From contig NZ_JAXMIH010000023.1 of assembly GCF_034366625.1 (NCBI RefSeq), positions 62,001 through 126,000 of the forward strand: 64,000 nt of DNA. Direction: 5' to 3'. This document shows, in pieces, positions 3,432-46,158 of this stretch (position 1 is the stretch's first letter; each line of letters begins with the position of its first letter). The notes under the pieces are model-generated. The model was not told where the DNA came from and made no database searches. It saw only the letters and a list, made by a program, of their open reading frames with translations. The stretch comes from Prosthecobacter sp. GTDB lineage: Bacteria; Verrucomicrobiota; Verrucomicrobiia; Verrucomicrobiales; Verrucomicrobiaceae. The translations under genes and the position numbers were made by a program.

Positions 3432-3440
3432 GGAGGGAAA

Positions 3441-3472
3441 GGTCGAATGACGAATGCGGAATTATGAATGAA
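3441..3472. repeat. Heptamer repeat arm (GCATTCGTCATT core)
   Basis: Read on the minus strand this contains TTCCGCATTCGTCATT, a 16-base string also present at 8291-8306. It sits just upstream of the start codon of the TrkA-C gene, as the 8282-8315 copy does for the kinase-like gene. The family is described at 36805-36875. Confidence 0.65.
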
Positions 3473-8259: not shown

Positions 8260-8281
8260 GCATTCGCGGCTTTGCGTTGGA

Positions 8282-8315
8282 CATTCGACCTTCCGCATTC
8301 GTCATTCCGCATTCC
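8282..8315. repeat. Heptamer repeat arm (GCATTCGTCATT core)
   Basis: Degenerate 7-base units (CATTCGA, CCTTCCG, CATTCGT, CATTCCG, CATTC) in the 60-bp gap between the MurU-like and AmgK-like genes, ending 4 bp before the latter's ATG. It shares the 16-base string TTCCGCATTCGTCATT with the minus strand of 3441-3472. Confidence 0.65.
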
Positions 8316-28386: not shown

Positions 28387-28471
28387 GTTCTCGGTTGGCT
28401 GTTCTCGGTTCGCCGTTGGCGGGCAGAACCCGGCGGTTGCAACCGCGAACGGCGAACAGAGAACAGAGAAC
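28387..28471. repeat. Inverted heptamer repeat with central palindrome
   Basis: The left arm 28387-28417 and the right arm 28448-28471 read GTTCTCGGTTGGCTG... and its complement with one 7-base unit missing. Units are GTTCTCG and GTTCTCT. The space between holds the palindrome CGGTTGCAACCG (28434-28445). It fills the divergent gap between the hydrolase and the HlyD-type gene. Confidence 0.7.
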
Positions 28472-28534
28472 CGCATTTCGACAAGCAAAAATCACCTGTC
28501 GCGGCACGAAGTTCGCGCATAGTGGGCGCACGCC

Positions 28535-29863: not shown

Positions 29864-30586
29864 ATGCCTCCCGTCACCCGCCCTCACGCCTCCTTCCTCA
29901 CCACCCGCTGGACGTGCGTCTGCGCGGCCAAGGCGGACTCCGAGGATGGACGCAGGGCGCTCGCGGATTTGTGTGATGCGTATTACGAGCCCGTCGTCGC
30001 CTTCCTCCGCTGTGAGCTGCGGGATGCGGATGCGGCGCGTGAGATGAGCCATGCCTTCTTCGCCGGGATGCTTGCGGGCGGTGCCATCGACACGGTGGAG
30101 CGTGAGCGCGGTAGGTTTCGCTCGTATCTACTCGGCGCGGTGAAGCATTTTCTCTCCCATCAGCGCGAAGCGGCGCAGCGGATGAAGCGGGGCAGTGGTG
30201 CGGAGACGGCTTCGCTGGATGATACCGAAGCGCAGGTGGTGGCGGATGCCCGGCTGCCCTCTCCTGACACGGCATTCGACCGCCAATGGGCGCTCACGCT
30301 GCTGAGCCGTGCGTTGAGTGAATTGCAGCGCGAGTGTGAGGTCGAGGGAAAGGGCGTCGTGTTTGAGAAATTGCAGCCCTGGCTCACCGGCGATGCCGCG
30401 CATGGGGATCAGTTGGAGCTGGCGGCCTCACTCGGCATGAACCTCAACTCGCTCAAGTCCCAAATCCACCGGCTCAAGTCGCGCTTCCGCGCCTTGGTGA
30501 AGGAGCAGATCGCCGCCACGTTGAGTGAAGACGGCTCCATTGAGGAGGAAATGACCGTCTTGTTTGCGGCGTTGCGGAGAAACTGA
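29864..30586 (+). CDS. ECF-like RNA polymerase sigma factor
   Basis: A 240-residue protein of the planctomycete/verrucomicrobial ECF-like sigma group. Residues about 8-95 correspond to sigma region 2 (TTRWTCVCAA, RRALADLCDAYYEPVVAFLR) and about 140-215 to region 4, with a helix-turn-helix ending in SLKSQIHRLKSRFRALVKEQI. The start is ATG 29864; a TTG six bases upstream is less likely. The Ser/Thr kinase follows 43 bp later. This pairing of sigma factor and kinase is common in these phyla, and the kinase is thought to act on signalling through the sigma factor. Confidence 0.85.
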   Translation: MPPVTRPHASFLTTRWTCVCAAKADSEDGRRALADLCDAYYEPVVAFLRCELRDADAAREMSHAFFAGMLAGGAIDTVERERGRFRSYLLGAVKHFLSHQREAAQRMKRGSGAETASLDDTEAQVVADARLPSPDTAFDRQWALTLLSRALSELQRECEVEGKGVVFEKLQPWLTGDAAHGDQLELAASLGMNLNSLKSQIHRLKSRFRALVKEQIAATLSEDGSIEEEMTVLFAALRRN

Positions 30587-30629
30587 TTTCCTTGGCAACT
30601 CTTTCCCTGCTACACGTCAGGACACCGAT

Positions 30630-34577
<3,948 letters not shown>

Positions 34578-36202: not shown

Positions 36203-36823
36203 ATGGAGTTCTCAAAACAGCGTCTGGGGCAGTTGATCATCGTTTCGGGGCCGTCAGGCACCGGCAAGACGACACTGGCGCGCAAGGTGTGTGATCGCGG
36301 TGAGGCGGTGTTCTCGGTTTCCTGCACGACGCGTGCGCCGAGGCCGGGCGAAGTCGATGGGAAAGACTATTTTTTCCTGACGGAGGGGGATTTCCTGGCG
36401 CGGGTGGAGCGCGGGGAGCTGTTTGAACACGCTCGCGTGCATGGCCGGCTCTACGGCACGCTGAAACGCTACGTTTACGAAAATCTGGAGAGCGGCGTGG
36501 ATGTGATCATGGACATCGACGTGCAAGGTGCGGCGCAGGTGCGCGCGTGTGAGGATGAATTGGTCAAACGCTGCCTGCTGGAGATCTTCGTGATGCCGCC
36601 GAGCCTGGATGAATTGCGCAACCGCCTGTCAGGCCGTGCGACGGAGGACGCGGCGGCATTTGAACTGCGGATGCAGAACGCGGCGGCAGAGATGGAGCAC
36701 TGGCGCAAGTATGGCTATGTGCTGGTGAGCGGCGCACGTGAGGACGACGCGCGGCGCTTTGATGCGATCCTCGAAGCGGGGCGGATGCGGACGAGTCTGA
36801 GGCCAATGACGAATGACGAATGA
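36203..36823 (+). CDS. gmk: Guanylate kinase
   Basis: A 206-residue GMP kinase (GMP + ATP to GDP + ADP). P-loop GPSGTGKT at 16-23, the GMP-binding SCTTRAPRPGE and DYFFL, and the lid with DIDVQGA. ATG 36203 matches the usual short start; the longer frame from 36104 overlaps the divergent Gfo/Idh gene. The last residues (PMTNDE) come from the heptamer repeat at 36805-36875, so the tail is not part of the enzyme fold. Confidence 0.96.
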   Translation: MEFSKQRLGQLIIVSGPSGTGKTTLARKVCDRGEAVFSVSCTTRAPRPGEVDGKDYFFLTEGDFLARVERGELFEHARVHGRLYGTLKRYVYENLESGVDVIMDIDVQGAAQVRACEDELVKRCLLEIFVMPPSLDELRNRLSGRATEDAAAFELRMQNAAAEMEHWRKYGYVLVSGAREDDARRFDAILEAGRMRTSLRPMTNDE

Positions 36824-36875
36824 CGAATGGTGTGGAGATCATCCATTCGACATTCGACATTCTGCATTCGTCATT
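36805..36875. repeat. Inverted heptamer repeat ending two convergent genes
   Basis: The left arm 36805-36830 (AATGACGAATGACG...) and the right arm 36843-36875 (CCATTCGACATTCGAC...) are complementary apart from one extra 7-base unit. The spacer is 12 bp. The left arm contains the gmk stop and the right arm contains the omega-amidase stop. It has the GCATTCGTCATT core shared with 3441-3472 and 8282-8315. It could act as a bidirectional terminator. Confidence 0.75.
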
Positions 36876-37636
36876 AATCCCGCGTCTTTGAGAGCGGGGA
36901 AGTGCGCACGCCAGTCTCGGATGACCGCAGGCTCAATCTGTGCACTGACCACGCGTTCTTGCTCGGCAGCGTCGGCGATGATGATGCCGTGGGGATCGAC
37001 GACGAGGCTGCGGCCGGTGTAAGTGAACTGGGGATCGGTGCCACAACGGTTGACGCCGATGACGTAGGCGAGGTTTTCGATGGCACGGGCCTGGAGCAGC
37101 GTGATCCAGTGCTGGATGCGTTTGACCGGCCAGGCGGCGATGTAGATGAGCACTTCGGCTCCGGCACGCACGGCATCGCGGGCGAGTTCGGGGAAGCGCA
37201 GGTCGTAGCAGATGAGCGGGGCGATGCGGAGGCCTTGCCATTCAAAAAGACTGACACTGGTACCTGCGACGTGGGCTTTGTCCTCGCCACCCATGCTGAA
37301 GGGATAGTTTTTGGTGTAGCGGGCGAGGATGCTGCCATCGGGAGCGATGGCGAGGGATTGGTTCAAGCCTCGGTTATCGGATGTTTGGGTGACGACGCCA
37401 CCGATGACGCAGCTTTGGTATTGAGCGGCGATTTCGCGCAGGAACTGCTCGCTGAGGCCACCTTCGGGCTCAGCGGTGACGGGGAGGTTCATGCTGAAAC
37501 CGGTGGAGAAGGTTTCCGGCAGGATGATGAGTGATCCGGGCTGAGGATTCGCTTCAGCGATGAGTTTCCGCGCTTTAGCGTGATTGGCGGAGCGGTCTTC
37601 CCATGCGGAGTCGATTTGAACGAGGTGTGCTTTCAT
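36839..37636 (-). CDS. Carbon-nitrogen hydrolase, omega-amidase-like (YafV/Nit2)
   Basis: A 265-residue nitrilase-superfamily amidase. The catalytic triad is Glu41 (PETFSTGF), Lys109 (RYTKNYPF) and Cys143 (ICYDLRFPE). The PETFSTGF and CYDLRFP pattern is that of omega-amidases, which hydrolyse 2-oxoglutaramate and 2-oxosuccinamate, and this is inferred from the family. ATG 37636 overlaps the stop of the MFS gene by four bases (37633-37636), fixing the start. The C-terminal MTNAECRMSNG is translated from the repeat at 36843-36875. Confidence 0.92.
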   Translation of the reverse strand: MKAHLVQIDSAWEDRSANHAKARKLIAEANPQPGSLIILPETFSTGFSMNLPVTAEPEGGLSEQFLREIAAQYQSCVIGGVVTQTSDNRGLNQSLAIAPDGSILARYTKNYPFSMGGEDKAHVAGTSVSLFEWQGLRIAPLICYDLRFPELARDAVRAGAEVLIYIAAWPVKRIQHWITLLQARAIENLAYVIGVNRCGTDPQFTYTGRSLVVDPHGIIIADAAEQERVVSAQIEPAVIRDWRAHFPALKDAGLMTNAECRMSNG

Positions 37637-45261: not shown

Positions 45262-45289
45262 AACCGCGAACTGAGAACAGCGAACCGCG
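45262..45289. repeat. Heptamer-periodic repeat arm (GAACTGA/GAACAGC)
   Basis: AACCGCGAACTGAGAACAGC and nearby bases, in 7-base steps, in the gap between the polyprenyl synthase and radC. It matches the unit type of 28387-28471, right arm. It is a single arm without an inverted partner. Confidence 0.55.
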
Positions 45290-46102: not shown

Positions 46103-46143
46103 TTTCAGTTTTCAGTTTTCAGTTTTCAGTTTTCAGTTTTCAG
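46103..46143. repeat. Perfect heptamer tandem tract (TTTTCAG)
   Basis: TTTCAG followed by five exact copies of TTTTCAG, 41 bp. It ends 4 bp before the Shine-Dalgarno AAGGAGG (46148-46154) of the gene at 46159. As an exact tandem tract it could change copy number by slippage and alter the leader. Confidence 0.85.
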
Positions 46144-46158
46144 ATTTAAGGAGGGAGC

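Follow-up and report, generated by a model that had tools for sequence, protein, structure and literature searches.

A seven-base repeat hairpin between convergent gmk and amidase genes of a Verrucomicrobiaceae genome, probably one copy of a dispersed heptamer family

This study asked why the ends of two converging genes, gmk on the + strand and a carbon-nitrogen hydrolase gene on the - strand, are read from two inverted arrays of a seven-base unit that lie between and inside them. The locus belongs to the window, which is the whole 64,000-nucleotide stretch that was analysed (contig C23:62001-126000 of the 6.65-Mb genome G000). The closest named gmk relatives of G000 are metagenome-assembled Verrucomicrobiaceae, several of which carry the label Prosthecobacter. 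The junction is composed of the following features, in window positions:

36203..36823, + strand: gmk, guanylate kinase (Pfam PF00625 at residues 10-191 of 206)
36805..36829, + strand: left heptamer array, 3.6 units of AATGACG, AATGACGAATGACGAATGACGAATG; contains the gmk stop
36830..36843, no strand: loop of 14 nt; contains the amidase stop codon (36839-36841)
36844..36875, - strand: right heptamer array, AATGACG-AATGCAG-AATGTCG-AATGTCG-AATG on the - strand, AATGACGAATGCAGAATGTCGAATGTCGAATG
36839..37636, - strand: carbon-nitrogen hydrolase (amidase; named omega-amidase in the first-pass annotation), Pfam PF00795 at residues 5-243 of 265

Both arrays are built from the degenerate heptamer AATGNNG, and their arms are 85-88% complementary over 25-26 nt. 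The gmk product ends in RTSLRPMTNDE and the amidase in KDAGLMTNAECRMSNG; the last six gmk residues, PMTNDE (36803-36820), lie at and inside the left array, the last eleven amidase residues, MTNAECRMSNG (36842-36874), are read from the right array and the loop edge, and both tails fall outside the Pfam matches. The first-pass annotation had stated that these tails are translated from a 7-base-periodic inverted repeat, which the sequence bore out. Its further statement that the repeat supplies the tails and stops of both genes holds for both tails and for the gmk stop (36821-36823, within the left arm) but not for the amidase stop, which the loop supplies. The motif AATGNNGAATG has 11 copies in the window, seven of them at this junction; dinucleotide shuffles contained a mean of 0.63 and a maximum of 4, and 11 copies were reached in none of 100. 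A chance origin of the arrays was ruled out by these shuffles together with a genome-wide reversed-pattern control. Rfam returned no match at the gathering score across the window.

We compared the same junction in relatives. The amidase search gave a match in all 39 genomes of the genus that were searched, weak and paralogue-like in five of them (best E ~1e-15 to 1e-20), and the 16 of the 30 amidase loci listed (G000 included) that have gmk adjoining formed the comparison set. The results revealed a heptamer hairpin at two of the 16 junctions (G000 and G014, the latter being the sequence of MAG UBA11399), an A/T-rich hairpin at four (G032, G026, G004, and G031), and back-to-back stops without a spacer at ten (TGATCA in nine, TGATTA in one); therefore, more than one kind of hairpin is present at this one junction in related genomes. 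The ten include G057, the genome closest to G000 by sequence (90.6% identity over gmk and amidase). The right array is identical between G000 and G014 (32/32 nt), and the left array differs by exactly three units (21 nt). Among the gmk ends, 39 of 80 named loci were examined (down to L173) and 38 were readable; PMTNDE was found in one, and this single carrier is the same sequence as G014. L148 has AATGACGAATGACG directly at the gmk stop, with no amidase found adjoining, and L150 has a small palindrome at the gmk-amidase junction. The A/T-rich hairpins are of two sequence types (L137 3607, L149, L139 3608, and L145 3608), and their patterns matched only gmk-amidase junctions within the sequence searched.

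Because the arrays occur in only 2 of the 16 genomes of the genus with the gene pair, the tails appear to be specific to a lineage and to be by-products of a hairpin between the genes, which is close to the guess of the first-pass annotation. Its expectation that orthologues would lack the tails or carry unrelated ones agreed with their presence in two of 16 gene pairs and of PMTNDE in one of 38 gmk ends, and the same tails in distant genera were not found among the loci examined. Conserved tails are ruled out for these loci by the same counts.

The tree of both genes (16 rows) left G000, G014, and G057 unresolved, with G032 next to them, and it is therefore compatible with a single gain, with two gains, and with a loss in G057; the heptamer hairpin had one origin in 34% of the bootstrap trees, and the A/T hairpin required two changes. 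The G000 loop is similar to the junctions with back-to-back stops in six relatives (p 0.002-0.004 each, uncorrected and with relatives that are not independent), and the G014 loop compared with six relatives' junctions gave p 0.011-0.015 each under the same limits. The likeness had p values of 0.05-0.20 for G012 and 0.07 for G022, and the test failed for G057, which is the closest relative (p 0.26), as it did for G027 (p 0.25-0.26). The likeness of the G000 loop would fit arrays added on both sides of old stops.

The G000 junction hairpin folds far better than shuffles on both strands (z -3.98 on + and -4.54 on -), and so does that of G014 (z -6.71). Three A/T hairpins folded moderately (z -2.68, -2.20, and -3.73), the folding of the L150 palindrome was not significant (z -1.46), and two empty junctions gave no folding signal (z +0.32 and +1.38). 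The G000 hairpin is stable but has no T run after either arm and thus lacks the form of an intrinsic terminator (G+C-rich stem and T run). The terminator scan listed none at the junction, the scan being limited to loops of 3-8 nt and the loop here having 14 nt.

A search of G000 for the unit, which the first-pass annotation had suggested, revealed AATGNNG arrays dispersed through the genome: the pattern of three exact units, AATGNNGAATGNNGAATG, had 80 matches, overlapping units being counted apart, and the reversed pattern had none. Within the genus, the three-unit pattern was found in 42 of 48 genomes (0 to 302 matches per genome), and the reversed control matched in two of the 48, with 1 and 4 matches. 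Among genomes of the same taxonomic order but outside the genus, 7 of 21 had the pattern, and AATGACGAATGNNGAATG was found in 24 of 387 genomes of the phylum sample. Placement was analyzed in 560 kb around the matches listed in G000, with genes called by a simple codon-usage finder whose starts are approximate. This set holds 74 arrays, of which 64 are no more than 60 nt from a called gene edge, compared with 18.5% of random places in the same sequence. Among these listed matches, 42 of the 48 arrays nearest a start are antisense, and those nearest a stop are 14 sense and 12 antisense. By a weak-partner criterion, 24 of the 74 listed arrays have a partner arm no more than 150 nt away on their inner side, and none has one on the outer side; therefore, many arrays are not hairpins. 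An impression by eye that the 5' edge of the array abuts the gene was not significant (41 vs 32, p 0.35). Two further family arrays of the window are as follows:

3439..3470, + strand: family array in a short spacer between two - strand genes
8275..8313, - strand: family array, 6 nt upstream of a called gene start (+ strand)

On the basis of these findings, we consider that the junction feature is probably one copy of the dispersed heptamer family, a hairpin at converging 3' ends with the tails as by-products. An ancestor with back-to-back stops would have had arrays arise, or be copied in, around the junction. The TGA-containing reading of the array would have provided a new gmk stop, and translation of the amidase would continue through its own array as far as the stop in the loop, which may be the original one. 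Selection may favour or tolerate an RNA hairpin that forms where both converging transcripts end, with 3'-end protection, less read-through, or termination as candidate roles. The hairpin was most likely copied to or re-formed at gene edges, the protein ends changing as a by-product. Cyanobacterial STRR heptamers and the heptamers of the tRNA-Leu intron stem are degenerate, occupy both stem sides in the intron, and change in copy number by slippage. Array length here may likewise change in 7-nt steps by slippage.

Four other orthologous sites were compared in the genomes in which both flanks were found. At C23:520281, a hairpin stands at one place in six of six genomes, in at least five sequences (that of G032 is like that of G057, and the other four are different), and all fold better than shuffles (z -7.58, -3.05, -6.92, -3.07, -3.99, and, for G001, -5.29). 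At C23:505188, G000 and G057 have full hairpins with different loops, and G032 has one unit per arm, a mini-hairpin whose folding was not significant (z -0.94). The C14:131208 hairpin is full in G000 and G057, and G001 and G011 have no spacer there, their genes overlapping at ATGA. The single array at C14:137243 is identical over 39 nt in G000 and G057, between flanks that are 88-90% identical, and is absent in G001. Empty sites were thus found both at the gmk-amidase junction and at other orthologous sites. No target-site duplication was noticed by eye in the filled and empty pairs, in which the arms are inverted and of variable length, and an alignment of ~33 kb between G000 and G057 contained two heptamer gap blocks (of at least 6 columns), both known hairpins, and no clean single-array insertion. 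The suggestion that a mobile or copied terminator had landed at the gene ends is consistent with the dispersed unit and the empty sites. A terminator role sits less well with the missing T run, despite the strong hairpin on both strands, and movement as one unit sits less well with loops that vary between sites and between species.

These sites also bear on a reading without any function, in which 7-nt slippage and template switching would enlarge an array wherever a seed exists and arrays would survive only at harmless gene edges. We regard this neutral growth as possible but on balance rather unlikely. The whole-unit difference between the G000 and G014 arrays, the one-unit-per-arm mini-hairpin of G032 where G000 and G057 have full ones, and the range of 0 to 302 matches within one genus are consistent with it, as is an earlier survey in which heptamers were the commonest long repeats in most genomes and polymerase slippage was proposed (PMC4679880, as far as its consulted parts show). 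However, slippage alone leaves copies of the same unit at distant places unexplained, and the C14:137243 array is identical in G000 and G057 despite its diverged flanks. The strong antisense bias near starts (42/48) also argues against neutral growth, although selection against ATG and TGA could cause it.

Another reading takes the arrays for REP- or MITE-like elements that a Y1 (RAYT-type) transposase mobilises. According to the parts of PMC3733652 consulted, REPs (GTAG and CGTC super-families) often lie within 20 bp of both convergent 3' ends and sometimes give the stop codon, and the convergent or unidirectional 3'-end placement and the donated stop codons match the arrays here, which are also dispersed intergenic hairpins with some copies inside coding sequence. 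However, the REPs described there are palindromes of 20-40 bp with an unpaired tag and limited loops, whereas the elements here are heptamer arrays of variable length with different loops. By inspection, an unpaired GTAG or CGTC tag was not found; CGTC/GACG lies inside the units, and there is no fixed palindrome, stem-loop, or loop. Y1_Tnp was present in 39 of 39 genomes searched, and its copies correlate with heptamer matches (rho 0.50; density 0.40, p 0.012), but this correlation is confounded because each of the two counts is itself correlated with genome size (rho 0.48 and 0.71). RAYT genes of the GTAG type are flanked by their element; here, a heptamer pair was found within ~2 kb at none of the seven Y1_Tnp places listed of the 11 matches in G000 and near only 3 of the 20 places listed in G000, G010, G014, and G012 together. 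Moreover, genomes with zero heptamer matches still carry Y1_Tnp (16 in G018, 15 in G023, and 9 in G033). Tested by flanks and counts, RAYT mobilisation fared weakly, and we consider it highly unlikely.

The array also has a second use, in signal peptides. Its opposite strand is free of stops in all frames and encodes SSFVIRH or SSFVILH. Arrays stand in frame at the N-terminus of at least eight sulfatases, where they form the core of the signal peptide. In each case no more than 50 nt separate the array from the start of the domain, and a direct scan also covered seven of the eight. Sulfatase genes above the cut-off number ~87 in this genome (88 rows, two being halves of one gene; 150 of 168 candidates scored). 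An array is also found at the N-terminus of a 3-keto-disaccharide hydrolase, and a few more array-bearing N-termini read by eye as secreted proteins or lipoproteins. The signal peptide of the hydrolase orthologue lacks heptamers in G032 (92% identity over 199 residues) and is another heptamer form in G057 (95% identity). The sulfatase at C6:1147346 has a heptamer signal peptide in G057 and G029, a partial one in G014, and none in G022, the start codons being script-chosen. Among the 29 usable rows of 30 top-scoring sulfatases, L358 having been left out for its shorter locus, the 9-letter frame CATTC..CATT matched at 9/9 letters in three and at 8/9 or better in six, and in the opposite orientation 8/9 was reached in none. 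Some heptamer arrays (L001, L002, L075, and L318) adjoin another repeat (GAGCAAAGCGAGACAGCCAGC-like), which also looks dispersed and seems to be part of one sulfatase signal peptide in G014 (MLAVSLCSA). A precedent is the Yersinia signal peptide partly formed by a MITE, in which a small repeat is likewise read in frame; in the parts of PMC2229807 consulted, that case is one locus with a 168-bp element, whereas here a heptamer array serves at least eight sulfatases in one genome.

The arrays may also be read as sites for a global regulator that binds DNA or RNA and recognizes tandem heptamers, by analogy with proposals for Geobacter metallireducens and Beggiatoaceae. Among the matches listed, 22 genes have an antisense array that reaches into the 20 nt preceding the called start, and one of the 22 has an SD-like motif, compared with 97 of 448 others (Fisher p 0.06); this deficit is partly built in because the array itself replaces the SD region. 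In the parts of PMC2700814 consulted, the class 3 putative global regulator sites of G. metallireducens are five tandem heptamers (MTYCTGA; 16 sequences), and the site classes are mostly paired on opposite strands at variable distance and are shown as strand-switching loops, with binding of IHF/HU proposed. Opposite-strand pairing was seen here in 24 of the 74 arrays among the matches listed, by the weak-partner criterion, and not in the others. The other-strand consensus of class 3, GRAKTCA, fits GAANNNN when R = A, but the unit here is GAATGNN and only the GAANNNN frame is common to both; gene-end capture is not reported for class 3 in those parts of PMC2700814. The unit here varies within and between genomes, and the placement at convergent 3' ends does not fit leader control, which makes the regulator-site reading, in our judgment, quite unlikely.

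The variation of the unit follows a rule. Array units replacing each other (AATGACG, AAACCAG, AATTCAG, and AAATCCG) all keep GAA every 7 nt, and the wider grammar, judged from these patterns, is (GAANNNN)n, mostly GAATGNN at the junction. In spacers, a set chosen for arrays, four GAA in a row occurred 57 times at lag 7, compared with at most one occurrence at any other lag from 4 to 15, and in the same chosen set GAA/TTC ranked top of the 64 triplets at lag 7. Coding sequence contained 10 such fourfold runs at lag 7, and 324 kb of contig C23, a less strongly chosen set, contained 17 compared with at most 1. When AATGNNG arrays were masked, GAACNNN and GAAAACT families remained in the window. 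Five GAA at lag 7 were found in 171 of 288 genomes of the phylum sample, and the grammar thus appears widespread in the phylum. The counts far exceeded the control in G251 (619 vs 7), G343 (546 vs 3), and G285 (299 vs 0), compared with 84 vs 34 in G000, 211 vs 192 in G128, and 52 vs 63 in G148; given the high control counts in some genomes, part of the lag-7 count there is something else. With 135 to 619 matches and control counts of 0 to 7, G251, G343, G285, and G267 are good places for study of the heptamer beat.

A bolder reading is that (GAANNNN)n arrays form a single class of heptamer code that spreads itself, is common throughout Verrucomicrobiota, and may be identical with the Geobacter sites. 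Its stop-bringing reading would trim or tag C-termini, its open hydrophobic reading would become signal-peptide cores, and the 7-nt beat would be written by some enzyme or replication process. We consider this unlikely as a whole. A close described parallel is TAACTGA, direct heptamer repeats of Beggiatoaceae, some Cyanobacteria, and Bacteroidetes that lie before starts and over stops (PMC4679880, in the parts consulted). Both are tandem heptamers, mostly intergenic, in many dispersed sets and sporadic across taxa, with one stop-rich and one open reading and with overlap of coding-sequence ends; the arrays here are likewise dispersed tandem 7-nt units at and between genes, at lag 7 only. Unlike TAACTGA, the unit here is the degenerate AATGNNG, and the open reading CATTCNN is sense before starts in 42 of 48 arrays among the matches listed. 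According to the same parts of PMC4679880, the Beggiatoaceae repeats are mainly direct, with the stop-rich reading before starts and one indirect repeat, whereas many inverted pairs are found here.

Each element of the finding has published precedent in the portions of the sources consulted. This heptamer family was not found described for Verrucomicrobia in the open literature searched, and neither was the combination of filled and empty orthologous sites with repeated signal-peptide use in sulfatases. At orthologous sites of the genus, one can see how a repeat has shifted a stop codon, lengthened proteins by tails, created hairpins between genes, and taken the place of signal peptides, and the filled and empty pairs are material for asking what sustains a 7-nt beat in bacterial genomes. 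For annotators, the warning is that a repeat can be the source of C-terminal tails like MTNDE and MTNAECRMSNG and of N-termini like SSFVILHSSF.

The window contains further features. A second heptamer hairpin, of GAACNNN units, lies at 28392-28473 with arms of 31 nt that are 87% complementary and 20 nt apart, and more single GAACNNN-type arrays lie at 45262-45289 and 2722-2752. An ORF of 1337 residues at 30564-34577 seems to encode a protein kinase and, after it, three similar domains that begin with NS/TLGMKFVPVP and look like formylglycine-generating-enzyme domains. At 46103-46147, an array of 6.4 TTTCAGT units (GAAAACT on the other strand) lies shortly before AAGGAGGGAGCATG, and its unit is one letter away from the TAACTGA described in the consulted parts of PMC4679880.
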